Shown here: positions 26,752 to 39,034 of the stretch, in pieces
Layout: the number at the start of each line of letters is the position of its first letter
Position numbering within the stretch: position 1 is the first letter of the stretch
From: Cellulosimicrobium marinum
GTDB taxonomy: Bacteria; Actinomycetota; Actinomycetes; Actinomycetales; Cellulomonadaceae
Reading direction: 5' to 3'
Length of the DNA: 64,000 bases
NCBI RefSeq assembly: GCF_020551945.1
Contig: NZ_JAJBZH010000003.1
Location: forward strand, 124,001 to 188,000
Translations under genes and position numbers: made by a program
Notes under the pieces: model-generated
What the model saw: the letters and a program-made list of their open reading frames with translations, nothing else
What the model was told of the DNA's origin: nothing
The model's database searches: none

Positions 26752-28854
26752 GTGAGCGCGACGCCGCAGGCTCCCCCGCCCCCGCAGGAGGACCACCCCA
26801 CGACCGGTCCGGACCCGGCCGCGCCCGACCCGCGCCCGGCCACCGCACCGGACCGTGGCCGGCTCGCCCTCGTGCTGCTCGTCCTCGTCAGCGCGCTCAC
26901 GGTCGAGCTCGTCCGGTCCAGCGGCCCCCTCCTCGACCACGCGTTCGCCGCCGGGATCGCGACGGTCGCCCTCACGGCCCTCGCGACCTACGCTGCACCG
27001 GGCGTGCTCGTCGTGATGATCGCCGCTCGGCTCGAGCTCACCGGGAAGGTGGTGCTCCTCGCCGTCGCCGCGCTCGTCGTCGCCCGCCTCGCGCTCCAGG
27101 GCCTCGGGACCGCCGTCGCGGCCGGGGCCGACCTCGGCCTCGTGCGGTACGGCGTCGGCCTGGCGAGCGTCGCCCTCGCCGTCGCGGCACTCGTGCTCGT
27201 CGCCGCGTTCGCCAGCGGGACGACCACCAGCCCGCCCGGACCCGCGCGGGCCGGCACCGTCGCGCTCGGCGTCGGACTCGGCACCCTGCTCGCCGCCGCG
27301 GTCAGCGCGACCCTCGGCACGTGGGACGCCTACTGGCGGCCCGGCCTCCTCGCGTGGACGACCACCGTCGCCGTGAGCCTCGGCGCGCTCGCCGTCGCCT
27401 GGCTGCTCCGCGGCCGCGAGGCCCGGCCCGGCGCACGCGGGCTCTGGCTCCTCGGCCCTGCCCTCGCCCTCGCGGTGCAGGTCCTCGCCAACCCCGCGTT
27501 CGTCGCCTCCCAGGCCGACGTCCCCGTCCCGGCCGCGGTCGCCGCCCTCGCCGTCGCCGCGCTCGCCACGGCCGCCGCCGTGCCCTGGGCCGTCGGCGCC
27601 GCACGCGGCGGCCGTCGCGTCGCGCGTGCCGTCGCCGTCTGGGGAGCGCCCCTGCTCGTCGTCGCCGGCGTCGCCGTCACCTTTCTCGCGGTGCCCCGCC
27701 TGCAGGGCCCGGGCGTCGTCGGGGGGTGGGTGCTGCTCGCGCTCCTCACCGTCCTCGTGCCCGCCGCCGCCGTGACGCTCGCCCTGTGCCTCCTGCGCCC
27801 CGCGCGGCCTCTCACCTGGCTGCGCCTCGCAGGGACGGCCAGCGTCGCCGGGCTCGGCATCGTCGTCCCGCTCCTCGGCTACCAGATCGACTACGACGTC
27901 CCCCTGCCCGTCCGCAACGGCTGGGTCCCCGTCGCGACCGCCGCCCTGCTCGCCGTCGTCGCCGTCGTCCGAGGGACGCGCGCCGGGTGGTCGTCCGGGG
28001 CCGCACCCGAGGGGACGGCGCCCGACCGGTCGGAGTCGACCGCCGCGCCCCTGGTCGTCGCGGCCGGCGTGGGCGTCGTCGCGCTGCTGGGCGTCACCCA
28101 GGTCCTGCCCCCGAGCTCCGGTGTCGCCGCCGAGCGCGTCCCGGGCGACCTGCGGGTCCTCGACTGGAACCTCCACTACGGGGTCAGCGCCGACCCGTCC
28201 GTGCCGCTCGACGACGTCGTGAGGACGATCGAGTCCTCACGGGCCGACGTCGTCACGCTCCAGGAGGTCTCGCGCGGCTGGGTGCTGGGCGGGGGCGTCG
28301 ACATGGAGTCGTACCTCGCGCGGGCGACGGGCATGCGGTCGGTCGCCGCGCCGGCGGCGGACCGGCAGTTCGTCAACGTGATCCTCTGGGACCCGGCGCT
28401 GGGCGACCTCACGGACGTCGCCCGGCACGCGCTGCCGTACGGCGCGGGCCCGCAGCAGCGGTCCGCGATCTCCGGCACCGTCGACGCCGACGGCGTCCCC
28501 GTGCGGGTCACGTCCGTCCACCTGCAGCACCGCGAGGAGAACACCCCCACGCGCCTCGACCAGCTCGACGCGCTCCTCACGGACGAGCCGGTCGACGGCG
28601 CGTACGTCCTCGCGGGCGACCTCAACGCCGAGCCAGGCTGGGACGAGCTCATCCTCCTCGAGGACGCGGGGCTGGAGAGCGGGCAGGACGTCGCGGGCGA
28701 CCCCGACGCCCTCACGTCGCCCGCCGTCGCCCCGGCCCACCGCATCGACTGGGTCCTCGGCTCGTCCGCCGTCACGTTCCGCTCGTTCGAGGTCCTCGAC
28801 GACACCTCCTCCGACCACCGCCCGCTCCTCACCGAGATCCGCGCCGCCGGCTGA
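26752..28854 (+). CDS. Membrane protein with extracytoplasmic endonuclease/exonuclease/phosphatase domain
   Basis: A 700-residue protein with a large membrane region of about 11-12 hydrophobic helices (residues about 40-460) and a C-terminal EEP-fold domain. The catalytic set is complete: Asn in LDWNLHYG, Glu in VTLQEV, AGDLNAEPG, RIDWVLGS and the terminal His in SSDHRPLL. Substrates in this fold include DNA, inositol phosphates and sphingomyelin; which one applies cannot be told. The domain probably faces outward. The gene is divergent from the pyrimidine operon with no evident link. Confidence 0.83.
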   Translation: MSATPQAPPPPQEDHPTTGPDPAAPDPRPATAPDRGRLALVLLVLVSALTVELVRSSGPLLDHAFAAGIATVALTALATYAAPGVLVVMIAARLELTGKVVLLAVAALVVARLALQGLGTAVAAGADLGLVRYGVGLASVALAVAALVLVAAFASGTTTSPPGPARAGTVALGVGLGTLLAAAVSATLGTWDAYWRPGLLAWTTTVAVSLGALAVAWLLRGREARPGARGLWLLGPALALAVQVLANPAFVASQADVPVPAAVAALAVAALATAAAVPWAVGAARGGRRVARAVAVWGAPLLVVAGVAVTFLAVPRLQGPGVVGGWVLLALLTVLVPAAAVTLALCLLRPARPLTWLRLAGTASVAGLGIVVPLLGYQIDYDVPLPVRNGWVPVATAALLAVVAVVRGTRAGWSSGAAPEGTAPDRSESTAAPLVVAAGVGVVALLGVTQVLPPSSGVAAERVPGDLRVLDWNLHYGVSADPSVPLDDVVRTIESSRADVVTLQEVSRGWVLGGGVDMESYLARATGMRSVAAPAADRQFVNVILWDPALGDLTDVARHALPYGAGPQQRSAISGTVDADGVPVRVTSVHLQHREENTPTRLDQLDALLTDEPVDGAYVLAGDLNAEPGWDELILLEDAGLESGQDVAGDPDALTSPAVAPAHRIDWVLGSSAVTFRSFEVLDDTSSDHRPLLTEIRAAG

Positions 28855-28881
28855 CCCCACCGCACCCGCTCGCACAAGGGG

Positions 28882-28965
28882 GTACCGCACTCCGCCGAGG
28901 GAGTACCGCAGCCCGCCGACGTCGTACCGGGATCTGCCGAGGGAGTACCCAGGCTCGCCGGCAAC
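28882..28965 (-). repeat. Four 21-nt tandem units, left arm
   Basis: Four consecutive 21-nt units begin at 28882, 28903, 28924 and 28945, each starting GTACC. Three contain GCCGA, and two of them end GAGGGA. Unit 3 is close to the reverse complement of the unit at 29186-29206 on the other side of the core. Confidence 0.75.
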
Positions 28966-29029
28966 GGCCCAGTCCCAGGTCGGTCCTGCCCGACGGCGAG
29001 CAGTCACCCCTGGTGGGACGGCACCGGGA

Positions 29030-29118
29030 GGGGTGGGTGGGGCGCCGCGTCGTGGCGGGCCTGGCGGGAGCCGCGAGGAACGAGCGGCGGAGGGAAGACG
29101 CGGCGCCCCACCCACCCC
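29030..29118. ncRNA. Stem-closed conserved core, copy 1
   Basis: A 22-bp perfect stem (29030-29051 with 29097-29118) closes a 45-nt core at 29052-29096. The core contains GCGAGGAACGAGCGGC, which can itself form a 5-bp GCCGC/GCGGC hairpin with a nine-nt loop. Copy 2 has the same core at 42 of 45 positions but a different stem sequence that is also perfectly paired. Pairing is conserved while sequence is not, which suggests a folded RNA or a cruciform. Strand and function are not known. Confidence 0.5.
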
Positions 29119-29143
29119 GACACCCGAGGCGACCACGCGCCGT

Positions 29144-29227
29144 CGGGCACGAGAACCCCGGTACTCCCCCGGCCAACCAGGGTTCTCCCTCGGCCGACCC
29201 CGGTACTCCCCTCGGCGAGGGTTAGGG
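29144..29227 (+). repeat. 21-nt tandem units, right arm (inverted)
   Basis: Units of 21 nt end at 29164, 29185, 29206 and 29227. The second and third begin TCCC and the first and third end GGTAC. They are inverted relative to 28882-28965. The last unit overlaps the promoter of the next gene. Confidence 0.65.
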
Positions 29228-29234
29228 TCGGCGG
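29223..29234 (+). promoter_or_regulatory. Leaderless promoter inside the repeat edge
   Basis: TAGGGT at 29223-29228, six bases, then GTG at 29235. The hexamer lies at the end of the last 21-nt unit, so the repeat supplies or adjoins the promoter. Confidence 0.45.
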
Positions 29235-29708
29235 GTGCGCATCGAGATGACCGTGACGGAGGCCGTCGAGCTCGCGCGGGCGACGGGCGTGCTGCCCCCG
29301 TTCGTGCGGTCGGTGACGGGCGAGGGGGACGACGTGCGCGTCGTCGTGGACCTGCGCGAGGTGCCCGACCCGCCGTCGGCCCTGCGGCTCGCGGCCCGGC
29401 TCGTGCCGGTGGTGCGCGCGACGCTGCGGGTCGAGTCGTGCGTCGCCGGCACGGCGGTGGTCGCCGTGGAGGCGAGCGCCGCCGGCCTGCCGGCGCACAA
29501 GCTGCTCGGTGTCGTCGAGTCGCCGCTGCAGGGCGCGCTGCGCTCGCGCGGGCTGCCCGGAGACGCGGTGCGCGTCCTGCCCGACGCGCGGGTCGCCGTC
29601 GACGTCCAGGCGCTGCTGCGCGCGGGCGTGGCGGGGACGCTTCCGGCGGTGGAGGTCACCGACCTGGCGTACGCCGACGGGACGCTGCGCGCGCAAGTGA
29701 GCCTCTGA
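29235..29708 (+). CDS. Conserved-looking protein of unknown function
   Basis: A 157-residue soluble protein that I do not recognise. It has alternating strands and helices (VRVVVDLREVPDPPSALRLAARLVP, VAGTAVVAVEASAAGLPAHKLLG), no Cys cluster beyond one Cys, and no signal or membrane segment. Codon use is normal for the window, with high GC at third positions, so it is very probably a real gene. The start follows a leaderless promoter. It is convergent with the lpdA-like gene, 12 bases away. Confidence 0.7.
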   Translation: MRIEMTVTEAVELARATGVLPPFVRSVTGEGDDVRVVVDLREVPDPPSALRLAARLVPVVRATLRVESCVAGTAVVAVEASAAGLPAHKLLGVVESPLQGALRSRGLPGDAVRVLPDARVAVDVQALLRAGVAGTLPAVEVTDLAYADGTLRAQVSL

Positions 29709-29720
29709 CGGAGGTCCGCC

Positions 29721-31163
29721 TCAGTCCTCGCGGTGGTGCAGCATGCGCGCGACCTCGGCGATCGACCCCGAGAGCGAGGGGTAGACCGTGAAGGCGGACG
29801 CGACGTCGTCCACCGTGAGGCGGTGCGAGACGGCGAGCGTGATGGGGAAGACGAGCTCGCTGGCGCGCGGCGCGACGACGACCCCGCCGAGCACGACGCC
29901 CGCCTCGGGGTGGGCGAAGAGCTTGACGAACCCGTCGCGCATGCCGAGCATCTTCGCGCGCGGGTTGCGCGCGAGGGGCAGCATCGTGGTGACGTACTTG
30001 CTCCCCTGGGCCTTGAGACGTTGCTCGCTGTACCCGACGGTCGCGATCTCCGGGGCGGTGAAGATGTTCGCGGCGACGGTGCGCAGCTTGATGGGGACGA
30101 CGGCGTCGCCGAGCGCGTGGGACATCGCGACGCGGCCCTGCATGGCCGCGACGGACGCGAGCGGCAGGACGCCGGTGCAGTCGCCGGCCGCGTAGACGCC
30201 GCGCACGGAGGTGCGCGACACCTTGTCGACCTCGACGTGCCCGCTGGGTGTCAGTCGGACGCCCGCCTCCTCGAGCCCGACTCCCTGCGTGGACGGGACC
30301 GCACCGACCGCGATGAGGACGTGCGAGCCCTCGACGACCCGGCCGTCGGAGAGGGTGACGCGCACGCCGTCCTCGGTGCGCTCGGCCGACTCGGCGCGCG
30401 AGCGCGACATGACGGTCATCCCGCGGGAGCGGAACACCCCTTCGAGGAGCTCGGCGGCGTCGGCGTCCTCGCCCGGGAGGACGCGGTCGCGGCTGGAGAC
30501 CAGCACGACGTCGGACCCGAGGGCGTTGTACGCGCCGGCGAACTCGGCGCCGGTGACGCCCGACCCGACGACGATCAGCCGCTCGGGCAGCTCCTTGAGG
30601 TTGTAGAGCTGGGTCCAGGTGAGGATGCGCTCGCCGTCCGGCTGGGCCGTGGGCAGCACGCGCGGGGTGGCGCCGAGCGCGAGGAGGACGACGTCGGCGT
30701 CGAGCGCGACCGGTCCGTCGCCCCCGTCGGGCGTGTCGACGACGACGCGCGACGGCCCGTCGAGGCGGCCCTCGCCGATGACGACGCGCACGCCCTCGCG
30801 CTCCAGGCGGGCGTGGACGTCGGCGGACTGCGCGGCCGCGAGCGCCATCACGCGGGTGTTGACGGCCTCGAGGTCGACGATGTGGCGTCGCATGGACGGG
30901 TGCTGCGCCCGCGCGGTGTCGACGGGCAGGCGGATGCCGAGGTCGGCGGCGCGGTCGGCGATCGTCATCCAGTCGGCGGTCGCGATGAGGGTCTTGGACG
31001 GCACGACGTCGGTGAGGACGGCGGCGCCGCCCATGCCGTGCCGCTCGACGACGGTGACGTCGGCGCCGAGGCGCCGGGCGACGAGCGCCGCCTCGTACCC
31101 GCCGGGCCCCCCTCCGACGACGACGATCCGGGTGGCCTGACGGTCGGTGCTCTCGTGGGTCAC
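29721..31163 (-). CDS. lpdA: LpdA-type NAD(P)H-quinone dehydrogenase (flavoprotein disulfide reductase family)
   Basis: A 480-residue FAD/NAD(P)H oxidoreductase of the disulfide reductase fold. The FAD motif GGGPGGYEAALVARRLG is at the N-terminus, GSGVTGAEFAGAYNALG binds NAD(P)H, and YAAGDCTGVLPLASVA closes the FAD site. The active-site disulfide is absent: the region reads GMGGAAVLTDVVPSKTL. This matches mycobacterial LpdA (Rv3303c), which reduces quinones rather than lipoamide. A GTG at 31163 is preferred because CAGAAT (31176-31171) sits seven bases upstream and would overlap the alternative ATG at 31172. Confidence 0.88.
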   Translation of the reverse strand: MTHESTDRQATRIVVVGGGPGGYEAALVARRLGADVTVVERHGMGGAAVLTDVVPSKTLIATADWMTIADRAADLGIRLPVDTARAQHPSMRRHIVDLEAVNTRVMALAAAQSADVHARLEREGVRVVIGEGRLDGPSRVVVDTPDGGDGPVALDADVVLLALGATPRVLPTAQPDGERILTWTQLYNLKELPERLIVVGSGVTGAEFAGAYNALGSDVVLVSSRDRVLPGEDADAAELLEGVFRSRGMTVMSRSRAESAERTEDGVRVTLSDGRVVEGSHVLIAVGAVPSTQGVGLEEAGVRLTPSGHVEVDKVSRTSVRGVYAAGDCTGVLPLASVAAMQGRVAMSHALGDAVVPIKLRTVAANIFTAPEIATVGYSEQRLKAQGSKYVTTMLPLARNPRAKMLGMRDGFVKLFAHPEAGVVLGGVVVAPRASELVFPITLAVSHRLTVDDVASAFTVYPSLSGSIAEVARMLHHRED

Positions 31164-31289
31164 GGCGACCATTCTGACAGCCCGGGCGACCGTCCCGTGT
31201 CACGATGCGAGACGTGCCACCGTCGCCGGGCCGCACCGCGGACCTGCGCCGGACCCTCCGCACCCCAGGTCGTGGCGTCGCAGGAGGGC

Positions 31290-31301
31290 TAGCCTGACGA
31301 C
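31290..31301 (+). promoter_or_regulatory. Leaderless promoter of the PNP-pmm pair
   Basis: TAGCCT at 31290-31295, six bases, then ATG at 31302. Confidence 0.55.
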
Positions 31302-32153
31302 ATGACGACGACGCCTGCGAGCACACCCCCGCTCGACGACCCGAGCACCGATCCCTTCGTCGTGGCGCGCGCCGCGGCCGACCACGTCGCGCAGGCCACG
31401 GGGGTCGACGGGCACGACATGGCGCTGGTGCTGGGCTCCGGCTGGGGTGGCGCGGCGGAGCTGCTGGGCGACGTCGTCGCGGAGATCCCCACGGCCGAGA
31501 TCCCGGGCTTCACGGCGACCGCGGTCGCGGGCCACCTGTCGGTGACGCGCTCGATCCGGGTCGAGCGCGCGGACGGCTCGGTGCGTCACGCCCTCGTGAT
31601 CGGCTCGCGGACGCACCTGTACGAGGGCAGGGGGGTGCGCGCCGTCGTGCACGGGGTGCGGACGGCCGCGGCGACCGGCGCCGAGACGGTCGTCCTGACG
31701 AACGGGTGCGGCGGGCTGAACCCGGCGTGGGGGGCGGGGACGCCGGTCCTGCTGTCCGACCACCTCAACCTTACGGGCCGCAGCCCGCTGGAGGGCCCGA
31801 CGTTCGTCGACCTCACCGACGTGTACTCCCCGCGGCTGCGCGACCTCGCGCGGCAGGTCGACGCGAGCCTCGCCGAGGGCGTGTACGCCCAGTTCCCGGG
31901 CCCGCACTACGAGACCCCGGCCGAGGTCCGCATGGCGCGGACGCTCGGCGCGGACCTGGTCGGGATGTCGACGACGATCGAGGCCATCGCCGCGCGGCAC
32001 TGCGGTCTCGACGTGCTGGGCATCTCCCTCGTGACGAACCTGGCGGCGGGGATCAGTCCCACCCCGCTGTCGCACGCGGAGGTCATCGAGGCCGGCCAGG
32101 CCGCGGGGCCCCGGATCAGCGCACTCCTGGCCGACATCGCGAAGCTGGTGTGA
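31302..32153 (+). CDS. Purine-nucleoside phosphorylase
   Basis: A 283-residue trimeric-type PNP that splits (deoxy)inosine and (deoxy)guanosine with phosphate. Visible motifs are the phosphate-binding GSGWGGAAELLG, AGHLS, the ribose/phosphate region HLYEGRGVRAVVHGVR, LTNGCGGLNP, the purine-site QFPGPHYETPAEVRMAR and GMSTTIEAIAARHCGLDVLGISLVTNLAAG. The downstream hexomutase gene starts one base after its stop. It supplies (deoxy)ribose-1-phosphate to the neighbouring mutase and aldolase. Confidence 0.93.
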   Translation: MTTTPASTPPLDDPSTDPFVVARAAADHVAQATGVDGHDMALVLGSGWGGAAELLGDVVAEIPTAEIPGFTATAVAGHLSVTRSIRVERADGSVRHALVIGSRTHLYEGRGVRAVVHGVRTAAATGAETVVLTNGCGGLNPAWGAGTPVLLSDHLNLTGRSPLEGPTFVDLTDVYSPRLRDLARQVDASLAEGVYAQFPGPHYETPAEVRMARTLGADLVGMSTTIEAIAARHCGLDVLGISLVTNLAAGISPTPLSHAEVIEAGQAAGPRISALLADIAKLV

Positions 32154-32154
32154 C

Positions 32155-34020
32155 ATGACCGAACGTGCCACGACCCCGCGCGGGTCCGCGTCCCGGGCCG
32201 CGGGCCCGGCCGAGGCCACCGACGACCCGTCGTTCGACCCGGGTTCGAGCCACGCGGCGTTCCTGGAGCGGGTCGCGGCGTGGGTCGACGACGACGTGGA
32301 CCCGGACGACCAGGCCGAGCTGCGTCGGCTCCTCGACCTCGCCGACTCCCCCGACCCGCGCCGGCACGACGTGCGCTCGGCCGCCCTCGCCGAGCTGCGC
32401 GACCGGTTCTCCGGTCCGCTGGAGTTCGGCACGGCCGGGCTGCGCGGCGCGATGGCCGCGGGCCCGCACCGCATGAACCGCGCGGTCGTCGTCCGGGCGG
32501 CCGCCGGGCTCGGTGCGTACCTCGTGGACGCGCTCGGCGGGGACGCCTCGCGCGTGCGCCCGCGGGTCGTCGTCGGGTTCGACGCGCGACACCGGTCGCG
32601 CGCGTTCGCCGTCGACACCGCGGCGGTGCTCACGGCGGCGGGGGCCGACGTGTCGGTGCTGCCGAGCGCGCTCCCCACGCCCGTCCTCGCGTTCGCGGTA
32701 CGTCACCTCGGCGCGGACGCGGGCGTCATGGTGACGGCGAGCCACAACCCGCCCGCGGACAACGGGTACAAGGTCTACCTGGGCGGCCGGGTCGTGACGG
32801 ACGCGGGGCAGGGCGCGCAGATCGTGCCGCCGTACGACGCGCGGATCGCCGCGGCGATCGAGTCCGCCCCGCCCGCCCGGTCGGTCCCCCGGGCGGAGAA
32901 CGGTTGGACGGTGCTCGACCGGGACGTCGTGCGCGCCTACGCCGGGTCCGTCCTCGCGCTGTCCGACGGCGCCCCGCGGCGGCTCAAGGTCGTCACCACG
33001 GCGCTGCACGGCGTGGGCGGCGCGGTCGTCGCGCACGTCCTGCGGGAGGCCGGGTTCACGACCGTGGTCCCGGTCGAGGAGCAGCTCGACCCCGACCCCG
33101 ACTTCCCGTCGGTGTCGTTCCCCAACCCGGAGGAACCGGGGGCGATGGACCTCGCCCTGGCCTACGCCCAGGACGCGGGCGCCGACGTCGTGCTCGCGAA
33201 CGACCCCGACGCCGACCGCTGCGCGGTCGCGGTGTACGACCCGCGCGTCGGCACCTACCAGGGCGCGGAGACCGCGCGGTCCAACGGGTGGCGCGTGCTG
33301 CACGGCGACGAGGTGGGCGCGCTGCTCGGGGACGACGTCGCGCGGCGGGCCGCGGCGTCCGGCGCACCGGGAGGGGTGCTCGCCTGCTCGGTCGTGTCGT
33401 CCCGCCTGCTGGGGCGGGTCGCGGCCGCCCACGGGTTCGGGTCGGCGACGACGCTCACCGGGTTCAAGTGGATCAGCCGCGTCGACGGGCTCGTTTTCGG
33501 GTACGAGGAAGCCCTCGGCTACTGCGTCGACCCGGAGCACGTGCGCGACAAGGACGGCATCAGCGCCGCCCTGCTCGTCGCCCAGCTCGCGAACCGCCTC
33601 AAGGCCGAGGGCCGCACGCTCGTCGACGCGCTCGACGACCTCGCACGGGCGCACGGCCTGCACGTGAGCGACCAGCTCTCGGCGCGCTTCACCGACCTCG
33701 ACCGCATCGGCGAGACCATGACGCACCTGCGCAACGCCCCGCCGCGCACGCTCGCGGGCTCCGGCGTGACCGACGTCGCGGACCTCTCCCGAGGGCTCGA
33801 CGGCCTCCCGCCCACCGACGGCATACGCATCCTCACGGCCGACGGCTCCCGGGTCGTCGTCCGCCCGAGCGGCACCGAGCCGAAGGTCAAGTGCTACCTC
33901 GAGGTCGTCGTCCCCGTCGCGCCGGACGCGTCCCACGACGACCTCACGGCGGCGCGCGCGTTCGCCCGCGAGCGCCTCGACCGCGTCCGGGCCGACATGC
34001 GGCGTGCGCTGGGGCTGTGA
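32155..34020 (+). CDS. pmmB: Phosphohexomutase/phosphopentomutase-like (PMM/PGM family)
   Basis: A 621-residue alpha-D-phosphohexomutase. The four domain signatures are visible: the phosphoserine loop VMVTASHNPPADNGYKVYL, the metal loop NDPDADRCAVAVYD, the sugar loop GYEEALGYCVD and the C-terminal phosphate loop VVRPSGTEPKVKCYLEV. It is long because of an N-terminal extension of about 70 residues, as in the PgmB/YhxB type. Tight coupling to PNP and proximity to deoC suggest a phosphopentomutase role moving the phosphate of (deoxy)ribose from position 1 to 5. Mannose or glucose phosphomutase activity is equally possible; manC is further along. Confidence 0.88.
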   Translation: MTERATTPRGSASRAAGPAEATDDPSFDPGSSHAAFLERVAAWVDDDVDPDDQAELRRLLDLADSPDPRRHDVRSAALAELRDRFSGPLEFGTAGLRGAMAAGPHRMNRAVVVRAAAGLGAYLVDALGGDASRVRPRVVVGFDARHRSRAFAVDTAAVLTAAGADVSVLPSALPTPVLAFAVRHLGADAGVMVTASHNPPADNGYKVYLGGRVVTDAGQGAQIVPPYDARIAAAIESAPPARSVPRAENGWTVLDRDVVRAYAGSVLALSDGAPRRLKVVTTALHGVGGAVVAHVLREAGFTTVVPVEEQLDPDPDFPSVSFPNPEEPGAMDLALAYAQDAGADVVLANDPDADRCAVAVYDPRVGTYQGAETARSNGWRVLHGDEVGALLGDDVARRAAASGAPGGVLACSVVSSRLLGRVAAAHGFGSATTLTGFKWISRVDGLVFGYEEALGYCVDPEHVRDKDGISAALLVAQLANRLKAEGRTLVDALDDLARAHGLHVSDQLSARFTDLDRIGETMTHLRNAPPRTLAGSGVTDVADLSRGLDGLPPTDGIRILTADGSRVVVRPSGTEPKVKCYLEVVVPVAPDASHDDLTAARAFARERLDRVRADMRRALGL

Positions 34021-34057
34021 GGGCTCCCCGGGCACGCCGCGCGACCGTACCGGCGGG

Positions 34058-34069
34058 TAACCTGGGGCG
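34058..34069 (+). promoter_or_regulatory. Leaderless promoter of deoC
   Basis: TAACCT at 34058-34063, six bases, then ATG at 34070. Confidence 0.55.
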
Positions 34070-35131
34070 ATGAGCACAACGACACCGACGTCGGTCGACG
34101 GGACCGGCCCGGCGGGTTCGGTCGCGACGCCGGCGACCCCGGCCGCCGCCGACCGTTCCGCCGCCGAGATCGCCGAGATCGCGCGCTCCGTGACCGGCTC
34201 CGCCGCGCTCGACGACACCACGTGGCGGCGCTACCTCCACGGGCTGCCGGGTGTCGACACGGTCGGCGCCGACGGCCGCGCCGCGATGCTCGGCACGCGG
34301 TCGGTGAAGACGACGTCGAAGGGGTGGGCCCTCGACACGATCGTGCGCATGGTCGACCTCACGACCCTGGAGGGCGCCGACACCCCCGGCAAGGTCCGCG
34401 CGCTCGCCGCGAAGGCCGTGCGGCCCGAACCGAACGACCCCACCTGCCCGTCCGCCGCCGCCGTGTGCGTGTACAACGACATGGTCCCCGTCGCCGTCGA
34501 GGCGCTCGCCGGGACGGGTGTGAAGGTCGCCGCGGTCTCGACGGCGTTCCCGTCCGGCCGGGCGAGCCGCGCCGTGCGCCTCGCGGACACGCGCGACGCC
34601 GTCGAGGCGGGCGCCGACGAGATCGACATGGTCATCGACCGGGGAGCGTTCCTGTCCGGGCGCTACGGCCAGGTCTACGACGACATCGTCGCCGTGCGCG
34701 CGGAGTGCCGCGCGAACGGTCGTCACGCGCACCTCAAGGTCATCCTCGAGACGGGCGAGCTCGCGACGTACGACAACGTGCGTCGCGCGTCCTGGCTCGC
34801 GATGCTCGCGGGCGCCGACTTCATCAAGACGAGCACGGGCAAGGTCGCTCCCGCCGCGACCCTGCCGGTGACGGTCGTCATGCTCGAGGCCGTGCGCGAC
34901 TTCCTCGCCCTCACGGGGGTCCAGGTGGGCGTCAAGCCCGCCGGCGGCATCAAGACCTCCAAGGACGCGATCAAGTACCTGGTCGCCGTCAACGAGGTCG
35001 CCGGCCCCGCCTGGCTCGACCCGGACTGGTTCCGGTTCGGGGCGTCGTCGCTGCTCAACGACGTGCTCCTGCAGCGCAACAAGCTCGCCACGGGGACCTA
35101 CTGGGGTCCCGACTACGTGACCGTCGACTGA
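34070..35131 (+). CDS. deoC: Deoxyribose-phosphate aldolase
   Basis: A 353-residue class I aldolase that cleaves deoxyribose-5-phosphate to acetaldehyde and glyceraldehyde-3-phosphate. The Schiff-base Lys is in ADFIKTSTGK, with the proton-relay Lys in GVKPAGGIKT and the catalytic Asp in EIDMVIDRGAF. It has an N-terminal extension of about 50 residues compared with E. coli DeoC and belongs to the longer actinobacterial form. It starts an operon with two aldehyde dehydrogenase-like genes, which fits removal of acetaldehyde. Confidence 0.93.
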   Translation: MSTTTPTSVDGTGPAGSVATPATPAAADRSAAEIAEIARSVTGSAALDDTTWRRYLHGLPGVDTVGADGRAAMLGTRSVKTTSKGWALDTIVRMVDLTTLEGADTPGKVRALAAKAVRPEPNDPTCPSAAAVCVYNDMVPVAVEALAGTGVKVAAVSTAFPSGRASRAVRLADTRDAVEAGADEIDMVIDRGAFLSGRYGQVYDDIVAVRAECRANGRHAHLKVILETGELATYDNVRRASWLAMLAGADFIKTSTGKVAPAATLPVTVVMLEAVRDFLALTGVQVGVKPAGGIKTSKDAIKYLVAVNEVAGPAWLDPDWFRFGASSLLNDVLLQRNKLATGTYWGPDYVTVD

Positions 35132-35154
35132 GCGGAACCGAGGACAGCACCACG

Positions 35155-36627
35155 ATGACCACACAGCTCACCACGGCCGGCTCGCCGTTCGAGTACGCGC
35201 CCGCCCCCGAGTCGCGCGCCGTCGTCGACATCGCGTCGTCGTACGGGCTCTTCGTCGACGGGGAGTTCACGCCCGCGTCCGACGACGGCTCGTTCAAGAC
35301 CGTCAACCCCGCCACCGAGGAGGTCCTCGCGGAGGTCGCGGAGGCCACCGAGGACGACGTCGACCGCGCCGTCCGCGCCGCGCGCCGCGCCCAGGAGAAG
35401 GTCTGGGGCCCGATGCCGGGCCGCGAGCGCGCGAAGTACCTGTTCCGCATCGCGCGGCTCCTCGCCGAGCGCGCCCGCGAGTTCGCCGTCCTGGAGACCC
35501 TCGACAACGGCAAGCCGATCCGCGAGTCGCGCGACGTCGACGTGCCCACCGCGGCGGCGCACTTCTTCTACTACGCGGGCTGGGCGGACAAGCTCGAGCA
35601 CGCCGGCTACGGCCCGGACCCGCGACCGCACGGCGTCGCCGCCCAGGTCATCCCGTGGAACTTCCCGCTCCTCATGCTCGCGTGGAAGATCGCCCCGGCG
35701 CTCGCGACCGGCAACACGGTCGTGCTCAAGCCCGCCGAGACCACGCCCCTCACGGCGCTGCTGTTCGCCGACCTGCTGCGTCAGGCCGAGCTGCCGCCCG
35801 GCGTCGTGAACATCGTGACGGGGGCAGGGGCCACGGGAGCCGCACTCGTCGCGCACCCGGGCGTCGACAAGGTCGCCTTCACGGGGTCGACGCCGGTCGG
35901 CAAGCGGATCGCGCAGCAGATCGCGGGCACGCGCAAGCACGCGACGCTCGAGCTCGGCGGCAAGGCCGCGAACATCGTGTTCGACGACGCGCCGCTCGAC
36001 CAGGCGATCGAGGGCATCGTCAACGGGATCTTCTTCAACCAGGGCCAGGTGTGCTGCGCGGGGTCGCGCCTCCTCGTCCAGGAGTCGATCGCCACCGAGC
36101 TCGTCGACCGGCTCAAGGCGCGCCTCGGCACGCTGCGCGTGGGCGACCCGATGGACAAGAACACCGACGTCGGTGCCATCAACTCGGCGCAGCAGCTCGC
36201 CCGCATCACCGAGCTCACGGAGGCGGGGGTCGCCGAGGGCGCCACGCGCTGGAGCCCGGCGTGCGACCTGCCGGAGTCGGGGTTCTGGTTCGCGCCCACG
36301 CTCTTCACGGGCGTGTCCGCCGCGCACCGCATCGCCCGCGAGGAGATCTTCGGGCCCGTGCTGTCCGTGCTGACGTTCCGCACGCCCGCCGAGGCGGTCG
36401 CCAAGGCGAACAACACGCCGTACGGGCTGTCGGCGGGGATCTGGTCGGAGAAGGGGTCGCGCATCCTGTGGATGGCGGACCGTCTGCGTGCCGGTGTCGT
36501 GTGGTCCAACACGTTCAACCGGTTCGACCCGACCAGCCCGTTCGGCGGCTACAAGGAGTCCGGCTATGGCCGCGAGGGCGGCCGGCACGGCCTGGCGCCC
36601 TACCTGATCGAGGGGAGCACGTACTGA
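35155..36627 (+). CDS. Aldehyde dehydrogenase, catalytically complete
   Basis: A 490-residue NAD(P)-dependent aldehyde dehydrogenase. It has the catalytic Cys in [12 protein letters not shown], the general-base Glu in [13 protein letters not shown], the Asn in [11 protein letters not shown], and [13 protein letters not shown]. The C-terminal [17 protein letters not shown] is typical. The ATG lies 23 bases after the deoC stop. It probably oxidises the acetaldehyde produced by DeoC. The next gene begins within its stop (TGATG), so the two are translationally coupled. Confidence 0.92.
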
Positions 36628-37577
36628 TGGCCCGCACCACGAGCGGCACGGCGGCGTCGTCGCGCACGTCACGGGGCGCCTCCACGCCCGAACGTCTCGG
36701 CGTCCGCAAGACGTACAAACTGTACGTCGGCGGGAAGTTCCCCCGCAGCGAGTCCGGCCGCACCTACGAGGTCACGGACGCCAAGGGCCGGTTCGTCGCG
36801 AACGTCGCGCAGGGCTCGCGCAAGGACGCGCGCGACGCCGTCGTCGCGGCCCGCGCCGCCCAGGCCGGCTGGGCCGGGGCGACCGCGTACAACCGCGGCC
36901 AGGTGCTCTACCGCGTCGCCGAGATGCTCGAGGGCCGCCGCGAGCAGTTCGTCGCCGAGGTCGCCGCGGGCGAGGGGCTGACCGCGCGTCAGGCCGAGCT
37001 CGCCGTGTCCGAGGCGATCGACCGGTGGGTCTGGTACGCGGGCTGGACGGACAAGGTCGCGCAGGTCGCGGGCTCCGCGAACCCCGTCGCGGGCCCGTAC
37101 TTCAACCTCTCGTCGCCCGAACCGACGGGGGTCGTCGTGGTCCTCGCGCCGCAGCGCTCGTCGCTCCTCGGCCTTGTCTCGACGATCGTCCCGCCGCTCG
37201 TCACGGGCAACGCCGCCGTCGTCGTCGCGAGCGAGCAGCGCCCGATCCCGGCCGTCACCCTCTCCGAGGTGCTCGCGACGTCGGACGTCCCCGGCGGCGT
37301 CGTCAACGTCCTCACCGGGTACACGAAGGAGCTCGCTCCCCCGCTCGCGTCCCACCTCGACGTCAACGCCCTCGACCTCGCGGGCGCCGTCGGCGCCGAG
37401 GGTCTCGCCTGGGGCGACCTCGAGGCGGCGGCCGCCGACTCGGTCAAGCGCGTCCTGCGCCCGGCGGCGGACCGCCGCGGGAACGACACCGAGCCCGACT
37501 GGACCGAGGCCCCGCGCCCGCAGCGCATCCTCGCGTTCACCGAGACGAAGACGGTCTGGCACCCCAAGGGCGTCTGA
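36627..37577 (+). CDS. Shortened aldehyde dehydrogenase homologue lacking the catalytic domain
   Basis: A 316-residue protein related to the first half of an aldehyde dehydrogenase. The N-terminal YKLYVGGKFPRSESGRTYEV and cofactor-domain segments are present (EPTGVVVVLAPQRSSLLGLVSTIVPPLVTGNAAVVVAS, GGVVNVLTGY). The sequence then ends in ILAFTETKTVWHPKGV without the domain that carries the catalytic Cys, the Glu or the EEIFGP motif. The terminal FTETKTVWHP matches the end of normal dehydrogenases, so the middle has been deleted rather than the end truncated. It overlaps the active homologue by TGATG. It could be a regulatory or structural partner. Confidence 0.85.
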   Translation: MARTTSGTAASSRTSRGASTPERLGVRKTYKLYVGGKFPRSESGRTYEVTDAKGRFVANVAQGSRKDARDAVVAARAAQAGWAGATAYNRGQVLYRVAEMLEGRREQFVAEVAAGEGLTARQAELAVSEAIDRWVWYAGWTDKVAQVAGSANPVAGPYFNLSSPEPTGVVVVLAPQRSSLLGLVSTIVPPLVTGNAAVVVASEQRPIPAVTLSEVLATSDVPGGVVNVLTGYTKELAPPLASHLDVNALDLAGAVGAEGLAWGDLEAAAADSVKRVLRPAADRRGNDTEPDWTEAPRPQRILAFTETKTVWHPKGV

Positions 37578-37589
37578 CCACCCACGCCC

Positions 37590-37633
37590 ACGACGCCCGG
37601 TGCCGCCCTCCCGAGGACGGCACCGGGCGTCGT
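37590..37633. terminator. Strong hairpin after the deoC operon
   Basis: A 16-bp perfect stem (37590-37605 with 37618-37633) with a 12-nt loop, 13 bases after the last stop. No T tract follows. It is the probable transcription terminator. Confidence 0.7.
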
Positions 37634-37903
37634 CGTGCATCCAGGGCCCGACCGCTTCTCCCCCGACAGACAAGACCACTGACGAACCCGCGTACTACCT
37701 CGGCTACCGCGGTACTACCTCGCCGAGGCGACGTCCAGGCACGCGGGTGGGGTGGAGGGGGCGCGGGTCGTGGCGGGTCTGGCGGGAGCCGCGAGGAACG
37801 AGCGGCGGATGGGAGACCCGCGCCCCCTCCGGCCCGTCCGCGAGACCCACGCCCCTCCCGCGAAAGCCGCACCCGCCCCACGGAGCCGCGCGACGCGCGA
37901 GGA
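37634..37903. repeat. Gene-free gap carrying the second core element
   Basis: No convincing gene lies here. After the terminator hairpin come two GTAC-starting repeats (37692 and 37712, each followed by TACCTCG), similar to the 21-nt units at 28882. Next is the stem-closed core at 37754-37830, then degenerate repeats up to the adenosine deaminase stop. The order matches the composite element at 28861-29227 but is more worn. Confidence 0.6.
37754..37830. ncRNA. Stem-closed conserved core, copy 2
   Basis: A 16-bp perfect stem (37754-37769 with 37815-37830) closes a 45-nt core at 37770-37814. The core differs from copy 1 at only three positions. The stem sequence differs from that of copy 1 in many pairs, yet both are perfectly complementary. 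Here it lies between convergent genes. Confidence 0.5.
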
Positions 37904-39034
37904 CTAGAGCTGCGCGCCCTCGACGAGCTGGTAGCCGGGGAGGATGACGTCGTCGACGAGTGCGCGACGCTCGTCGTGGTGGACGAACGCGCTCCACGCG
38001 GCGGTCATGGTGACGTCGGCGAGGTCGTCGATGGTCCAACCGGCCTGCTCGACGAGCAGGGTCATCTCCTGCGTCATCGTCGTGCGCGACATGAGGCGGT
38101 TGTCGGTGTTGAGCGTGACGGCGAAGTCGAGCTCCTTGAGGCGCGTGATCGGGTGGTCGGCGATCGACGTCGCGGCACCGGTCTGCACGTTGGACGAGGG
38201 GCAGAGCTCGAGGGGGATCTGGTGGTCGCGGACCCAGTGCGCGAGGAGCCCGAGTGCGGCGGTGCCGGTCTCGCCGGGGGCGGTGTGGGGGTGCGCGGGG
38301 TCGAAGGTGATGTCCTCGACGAGGCGCACGCCGTGCCCGATGCGGGTGGCGCGGCCGACGTGCAGGGCCTCGGCGATCGACTCCGGCCCGGCGGCCTCGC
38401 CGGCGTGGATGGTGACGGGGAAGTTGTGCGCGGCGAGGTAGGCCCAGATCTCGGCGTGCCGGGAGGGCGGGAACCCGTCCTCGGCGCCGGCGATGTCGAA
38501 CCCGACGACGCCGTTCCCGCGGTTGGCGACGGCGAGCTCGGCGATCTCCTGCCAACGGTCGGCGTGCCGCATGGCGGTGACGAGCTGGCCGACGCGGATG
38601 GTGCGGCCCTCGGCGGCCGCGGCGGCGACGCCCTGCTCGATGCCGGCCTGGACGGCGTCGACGGTCTCCTGGAGGGTGAGCCCGCGCTGGAGGTGCTGCT
38701 CGGGGGCCCAGCGCTGCTCGGCGTAGACGACGCCGTCGGCGGCGAGGTCGAGCACGGCCTCGCGGGCGACGCGGGCGAGCGCGTCGGGGGTCTGCATGAC
38801 GGCAATGGTGTGGTCGAACGTCTCGAGGTAGCGCACGAGGGAGCCGGAGTCGGCGGACTCGGCGAACCAGGTGCCGAGGGAGGTGGCGTCGCGGGCGGGC
38901 AGCTCGTGCCCGACGTCGGCGGCCAGCTCGAGGATCGTGGCCGGCCGGAGGCCGCCGTCGAGGTGGTCGTGGAGGACGACCTTGGGCAGTTCGCGGATGA
39001 CGTCGGCGGTCAGCGCACGGTTCTCGGTGGTCAT
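37904..39034 (-). CDS. add: Adenosine deaminase
   Basis: A 376-residue adenosine deaminase converting (deoxy)adenosine to (deoxy)inosine. Zinc ligands and catalytic residues are in [13 protein letters not shown] (HxH), TIHAGEAAG (His and Glu) and LNTDNRLMS (Asp). The ATG at 39034 follows TAGCGT by six bases. Its product feeds the purine-nucleoside phosphorylase encoded 6 kb away, within the same nucleoside region. Confidence 0.93.

Follow-up and report, generated by a model that had tools for sequence, protein, structure and literature searches.

Dispersed hairpin repeats with compensating stems in Cellulosimicrobium, possibly recognized as a folded single strand

A stretch of 64,000 nucleotides from the genome of Cellulosimicrobium marinum (contig NZ_JAJBZH010000003.1, positions 124,001 to 188,000; hereafter the window) contains two hairpins that belong to an abundant repeat family whose stems differ from copy to copy while remaining paired. 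The two cores (29052-29096 and 37770-37814) are identical at 42 of 45 positions, as a preliminary description of this DNA had reported, and the perfect arms that it noted, of 22 bp around copy 1 (29030-29051/29097-29118) and of 16 bp around copy 2 (37754-37769/37815-37830), are also present. For copy 2, however, the perfect part is only the inner portion of a stem of 28 positions (37742-37769/37815-37842; locus L312), with 24 Watson-Crick pairs, 3 G.T pairs and 1 mismatch. The parts of the two copies are as follows.

29030-29051 (+): copy 1, left arm of the outer stem, 22 bp, 100% complementary to 29097-29118
29052-29069 (+): copy 1, unpaired conserved G-rich strand GTGGCGGGCCTGGCGGGA, defined by near-invariant alignment columns and prefix counts
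29070-29088 (+): copy 1, inner hairpin GCCGC-GAGGAACGA-GCGGC, defined by sequence and inner-helix covariation
29089-29096 (+): copy 1, unpaired conserved 3' strand GGAGGGAA; the commonest form in the family is GGATGGTA
29097-29118 (+): copy 1, right arm of the outer stem
37742-37769 (+): copy 2, left arm of the outer stem, 28 positions, the innermost 16 perfect
37770-37787 (+): copy 2, unpaired conserved G-rich strand GTGGCGGGTCTGGCGGGA
37788-37806 (+): copy 2, inner hairpin GCCGC-GAGGAACGA-GCGGC, defined by sequence and covariation
37807-37814 (+): copy 2, unpaired conserved 3' strand GGATGGGA
37815-37842 (+): copy 2, right arm of the outer stem

Measured against 200 dinucleotide shuffles, the folding z-scores are -7.74 (+ strand) and -8.10 (- strand) for copy 1 and -4.44 and -5.36 for copy 2, and no shuffle folded as well (0/200 in each case, on both strands). 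The gaps between open reading frames (ORFs) that hold the copies run from 28854 to 29235 (copy 1) and from 37577 to 37904 (copy 2). Pfam names only two of the flanking ORFs, an aldehyde dehydrogenase ending at 37577 and an adenosine deaminase at 37904-39034 on the minus strand, which is convergent to copy 2 and ends 62 nt past its right arm. A gene-free location, proposed earlier, is correct for both window copies but not for the family, because 15 of 88 copies in this genome lie inside called ORFs.

The preliminary description implied only two copies and proposed looking for others. Many exist, both in this genome and in related ones. A covariance model (R1) built from 42 copies of the C. marinum genome gives 87 matches there at E<=0.1, representing about 84 copies; later work used 84 of the 87, leaving out C13:42766, C7:81796 and C12:52035 as partial or weak. 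Because copies used in building R1 match it by construction, those in other genomes constitute the independent test. The motif GCGAGGAACGAGCGGC has 17 exact occurrences in the C. marinum genome (15 full-length model matches, 1 cut by a contig end and 1 partial match without the left side), and allowing up to 2 mismatches gives 92 places, compared with 31 for a reversed control. BLAST with copy 1 at E<=10 returned 58 pieces, 42 of which include the core, the others being short arm matches. Several copies stand at contig ends (G000, contigs C2, C5, C9 and C12), and poly-G/poly-C runs with N gaps adjoin two copies (L276 and L313); assemblies seem to break at the hairpins, so draft genomes may undercount them. 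At L276 (C12:51914-52109) and L295 (near C7:386180), partial tandem copies about 60 bp apart lie beside a fuller copy; part of the element has been duplicated locally there.

At E<=0.001, R1 detected the repeat in 22 of 59 genomes and 6 of 42 genera. All 17 Cellulosimicrobium genomes searched carry it, with 12 to at least 80 matches each (the best 80 candidates were scored). An order-wide sample, in which the best 11 candidates per genome were scored and copy counts are therefore lower bounds, was positive at E<=1e-4 in 19 of 396 genomes and 10 of 110 genera, C. marinum counted. Records matching the core pattern, among the best 80 of at least 98 stretches, come from Cellulosimicrobium, Luteimicrobium, Oerskovia merdavium, Actinomyces and one entry filed as Sphaerisporangium. 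The QAPD01 records (L178 and L212), filed as Sphaerisporangium cinnabarinum ATCC 31213, carry the repeat and match Cellulosimicrobium-side loci at about 91-97%; this label is probably wrong. The plasmid, phage and viral contig collections searched gave no match to the repeat, and no description of it was found in a literature search in which subscription journals were mostly lacking.

With both arms full, the element is about 105 nt long. Its conserved unpaired parts are GTGGYGGGYCTGGCGGGA, the hairpin loop GAGGNACGA and CGGATGG, and these are kept in copies from other families, in which the arms are different. Across the 42 C. marinum copies, 92.8% of alignment cells are paired (28-53% in slid controls), changes have occurred on both sides in 18 of 23 pairs, and the covariation score is 0.445, compared with 0.100 for shuffled and at most 0.092 for slid versions. 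The inner helix has double changes in 4 of 7 pairs, with 95.6% of its cells paired. Covariation is thus strong among many copies, which bears out the earlier suggestion that the stems are kept by compensatory change. At the gathering score, Rfam has no match to the window or to six loci of this genome, in agreement with the initial failure to recognize a named family; two further scans produced only sub-threshold matches, 5 in one and 3 in the other, and 5 of these 8 were to microRNA models. On these scans we reject a named RNA family.

The arms vary in sequence but pair over a limited length. The commonest type, with 21 copies including window copy 1, has shorter arms of about 22 bp. Among the 158 copies outside this type, of 179 distinct copies in all, the paired fraction is 0.92-0.94 at arm positions 15-19, 0.67-0.74 at 20-22, 0.76-0.87 at 23-27, 0.65 and 0.61 at 28 and 29, and 0.47 at 30; from position 31 it is near the composition expectation. 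The excess over composition stops at position 29-30; the outer arm sequence is free to differ, with pairing retained to about 29 bp. The dip at positions 20-22 is due in part to a 3x3 internal loop, GGA opposite GGA, which is enclosed by pairs on either side in 13 copies and, when outer pairing is not demanded, is present in 20 copies, 16 of them with the loop starting at position 20. A subfamily with several members inside ORFs (L006, L008, L021, L024 and related loci; arms GGCGAAGGGC ... GCCCGAGCC) has an extra internal loop in the outer stem, GAN opposite GA, again purine on the folding strand. A G-quadruplex in the G-rich strand was considered and discarded, as none of 80 folds contained one (ViennaRNA quadruplex option; 80 of the 179 distinct copies).

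Copies at the same place in different genomes give a second view of stem change. We found 60 pairs of orthologous stems and scored 40 in register. In 35 comparisons, at 20 loci, the same stem is recognizable and has undergone 81 double Watson-Crick changes and 33 single changes (21 via G.T, 3 via A.C and 9 other), plus 4 other double changes; when each change is counted once per locus, position and type, there are 49 double and 24 single. In 5 of the 40 comparisons (4 of 22 loci), most of the stem sequence differs, but 18-19 of 19 positions still pair. Double changes in excess of single ones and extensive stem replacement without loss of pairing could also arise in neutral hairpins whose fold is not recognized at all and which are kept perfect by gene conversion among copies and by replication errors that use one arm as the template for the other. 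The same explanation would accommodate the many copies in G005, G006 and G009 that share core and inner arms at different places, inside differing larger repeats, a pattern that suggests conversion between copies or recent spread. We nevertheless consider neutral hairpins an improbable account: they predict neither a fixed arm length nor a near-invariant unpaired core and, because arm copying is blind to strand, they do not predict the asymmetry between the strands.

Isolated mismatches in 155 distinct stems are G.T in 48 cases and A.C in 8 (p=5e-8), or 40 and 8 when counted by distinct context (p=3e-6); the p values are approximate, because related copies are not independent. On the folding strand, the 25 internal loops are all-purine in 16 cases, mixed in 9 and all-pyrimidine in none, and 13 are GGA/GGA. 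Were both strands equally important, G.T and A.C mismatches would be about equally frequent. Thus, the fold that appears to be kept is that of the + strand (window orientation), as RNA or as single-stranded DNA. The earlier proposal of a DNA cruciform, in so far as it is symmetric, is not supported by these counts.

Gene placement was assessed with a simple codon-composition gene caller for 88 copies of the C. marinum genome found by regular expression. Of these, 24 lie in convergent, 40 in tandem and 5 in divergent gaps, 15 lie inside ORFs and 4 are without both neighbours. Sampled background gaps comprise 55 convergent, 208 tandem and 54 divergent; convergent gaps are thus commoner and divergent gaps rarer among those bearing copies (p=0.002). 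The 3' side of the folding strand faces a gene end in 51 of 69 cases, at a median distance of 65 nt, and the other side does so in 37 of 69, at a median of 160 nt. In addition, a copy lies between two ribonucleotide reductase genes in several genera (L283 in C. marinum, L200 in Luteimicrobium xylanilyticum, L103 in G026 and L331 in G301), L103 being the only G026 match in the search at E<=0.001.

These placements and the shared ribonucleotide reductase copy favour a structured RNA, in which the + strand hairpin would act in transcripts, for example as a terminator, an RNase III-type processing site or a protein-bound 3' element. Tolerance of G.U on one strand and internal loops made of purines are likewise typical of RNA. 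This reading, raised in the preliminary description, is the main rival to single-stranded DNA. Covariation and G.T tolerance agree with it, but single-stranded DNA predicts the same. Against it, 27 of 40 tandem gaps have the folding strand antisense to the genes (p=0.04), and the copies inside ORFs fold in the direction of the gene in 8 cases and in the opposite direction in 7, so that transcription of the neighbouring genes would not produce the folding strand of many copies. We regard the RNA explanation as serious but, on present evidence, rather unlikely.

Orientation is more regular with respect to replication. With the terminus assumed to be opposite dnaA, copies from four genomes are oriented against replication in 85 of 131 cases (p=0.0008), the bias being significant in G005 (39/59) and G009 (17/23). 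On C. marinum contig C7, 16 of the 19 copies right of dnaA run against replication, and orientation is biased on contigs C1 (9/10), C7 (17/20), C12 (7/7) and C8 (16/19). Orientation bias of this kind, and dozens of copies in genomes of the genus, would also fit a site at which a chromosome-organising protein binds double-stranded or cruciform DNA. Such a site would not account for the strand asymmetry of mismatches and loops; moreover, the copy number varies from 12 to at least 80 within the genus and the element was not found in most sampled relatives. This makes a chromosome-organising role quite improbable.

Eleven copies, in eight proteins, are in frame and stand between Pfam domains. LigD, biotin carboxylase, a metal ATPase, UvrD, an ABC transporter and an NHL/thioredoxin protein are each interrupted by one copy, whereas a DNA polymerase III alpha-type protein holds three and an HrpA-type helicase two. 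We infer the names DnaE2, for the polymerase, and HrpA, for the helicase, from the domains of these proteins and from the presence of another polymerase paralogue that is 41-44% identical. Because intragenic copies occur in frames 0, 1 and 2 and in both directions, the core is conserved as nucleic acid and not as peptide. In the DnaE2 stretch, intact copies are present in 3 of 17 species. At a further DnaE2 site (site 3), G003 and G015 retain only part of the element, a portion of its left side, which indicates that losses by deletion occur. DnaE2 site 1 had suggested that an outer arm might be an inverted copy of the target flank, produced when the element inserts; we dropped this idea, as the apparently empty sites at site 3 can be deletions.

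We propose that these hairpins form a family of short interspersed repeats, similar to REPs or Rickettsia palindromic elements, that occurs in Cellulosimicrobium and sporadically among its relatives within the order, is recognized as a folded single strand and is maintained at its sites. We put the probability of this proposal at roughly 0.45. Some copies are at corresponding sites in different species; others occur in one species but are missing from another. Mobility is suggested by copy number, species-specific sets and such presence and absence, and maintenance by compensatory change at fixed places. The folded single strand would be the recognition structure of a putative DNA-processing enzyme. 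It would more likely be DNA that replication leaves exposed than messenger RNA, because the direction of copies is loose relative to genes and biased relative to replication in the pooled data. The putative enzyme would spread the element and, through conversion between copies, help to keep them alike, and the ends of genes and the linkers of proteins would be places where the host tolerates the element.

A bolder version, which we put forward tentatively and judge somewhat unlikely, is that the element is defined by its single-strand fold and not by sequence ends. On this view, the arms could be wholly replaced while their length of about 29 bp, a frequent GGA/GGA purine loop and the unpaired G-rich core persist, and individual copies would be kept intact at corresponding sites across species and genera, even in DNA polymerase and helicase genes. 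If this version is true, there may exist an enzyme that recognizes single strands by their fold and is responsible for spreading as well as repairing them, and a host that depends on some of the copies.

Several observations weigh against recognition of a mobile, maintained single strand. The replication bias is not significant in G012 (20/34) or G025 (9/15), and contigs C9 (7/10), C10 and C13 (3/6 each) of C. marinum have little or no orientation bias. Among the stretches compared, we found no clean insertion boundary, clean empty site or target duplication, and the clearest 'empty' DnaE2 sites can be partial deletions that keep an arm. The minimum-energy RNA fold often pairs the core otherwise than in the conserved inner hairpin (mean -40.7 kcal/mol, compared with -34.0 kcal/mol for the conserved fold), so the inner hairpin is supported by covariation and not by energy. 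In old copies, core and pairing are retained beyond what would be expected of a purely selfish element. Finally, in a search confined to this enzyme family, the Y1 transposase domain PF01797 was found in 0 of 14 genomes, 11 of them carriers, and in 5 of 14 control genomes.

The PF01797 result also bears on whether the repeat is a classical REP that is moved by a RAYT (Y1 tyrosine) transposase. The portion of the REP literature consulted (PMC3733652) likewise describes palindromes that are scattered between genes and within them, some in genes for replication and repair, but the stems given there are 5-13 bp, compared with about 29 bp here. Mobilisation by a RAYT or IS200 transposase is largely refuted by the lack of any PF01797 match in the 14 genomes, unless a transposase of an unrecognized family is at work, and we consider it highly improbable. 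Four proteins encoded beside copies in few-copy genomes were scanned for defence genes and gave one weak match, to mad8 (E=0.00017, 75 residues).

Both window copies have 21-bp repeats nearby.

28877-28960 (-): 21-bp tandem repeats, left of copy 1
29154-29216 (+): 21-bp tandem repeats, right of copy 1
37685-37722: 21-bp units

The unit is close to ACCANGGTTCTACCTCG plus a spacer and forms a separate, tandem repeat family; around copy 1 its orientation is opposite on the two sides. It occurs within 300 bp of only 25 of 84 hairpins, and 396 kb of the C. marinum genome contain 8 clusters, 7 of them intergenic, with no hairpin within 400 bp. The lone clusters and the infrequent association rule out the 21-bp repeats as an obligatory part of the element.

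The family is an abundant repeat in an actinobacterial genus, and its copies document stem compensation clearly. More than 100 distinct stems (155) on one conserved core make the features that a protein would read directly testable. The copies that lie, in any frame, within genes for replication and repair speak to the old question of how coding genes can take up palindromic repeats and stay intact, and they do so in genomes in which the usual REP transposase was not found.

Integron attC sites have a paired stem of free sequence and are read as a folded single strand. The likeness to the Cellulosimicrobium repeat would lie in these two properties and is one of general description. Like the hairpin-forming miniature inverted-repeat transposable elements ERIC, RUP and BOX, the repeat is small, folded and without genes of its own; unlike them, it has no conserved terminal inverted repeat, its arm ends being the variable part. 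No target duplication, and no clean empty site, was found among the stretches compared. REPs and REPINs are short palindromes in many copies (sections consulted of PMC3733652 and PMC3116915), and many intragenic REPs are in replication and genome repair genes, according to the abstract of PMC3733652. The repeat resembles REPs in its dispersed copies, mostly between genes and some inside replication or repair genes. It differs in having arms of free sequence and no RAYT in the genomes searched; the excerpts of PMC3733652 give REPs a GTAG or CGTC tag, whereas arm positions 28-44 here contain no constant tetranucleotide and thus no tag of this type. Rickettsia palindromic elements, described in the consulted part of PMC10969869, are repeats of about 150 bp that lie in frame inside unrelated genes of Rickettsia. 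The Cellulosimicrobium repeat likewise lies in frame inside unrelated protein genes, but in three frames and both directions and with a compensating stem and a conserved unpaired core, a comparison made by description and not by sequence. By analogy, the repeat may work in the manner of a REP or a Rickettsia palindromic element, although its compensating stem is larger and its core different.

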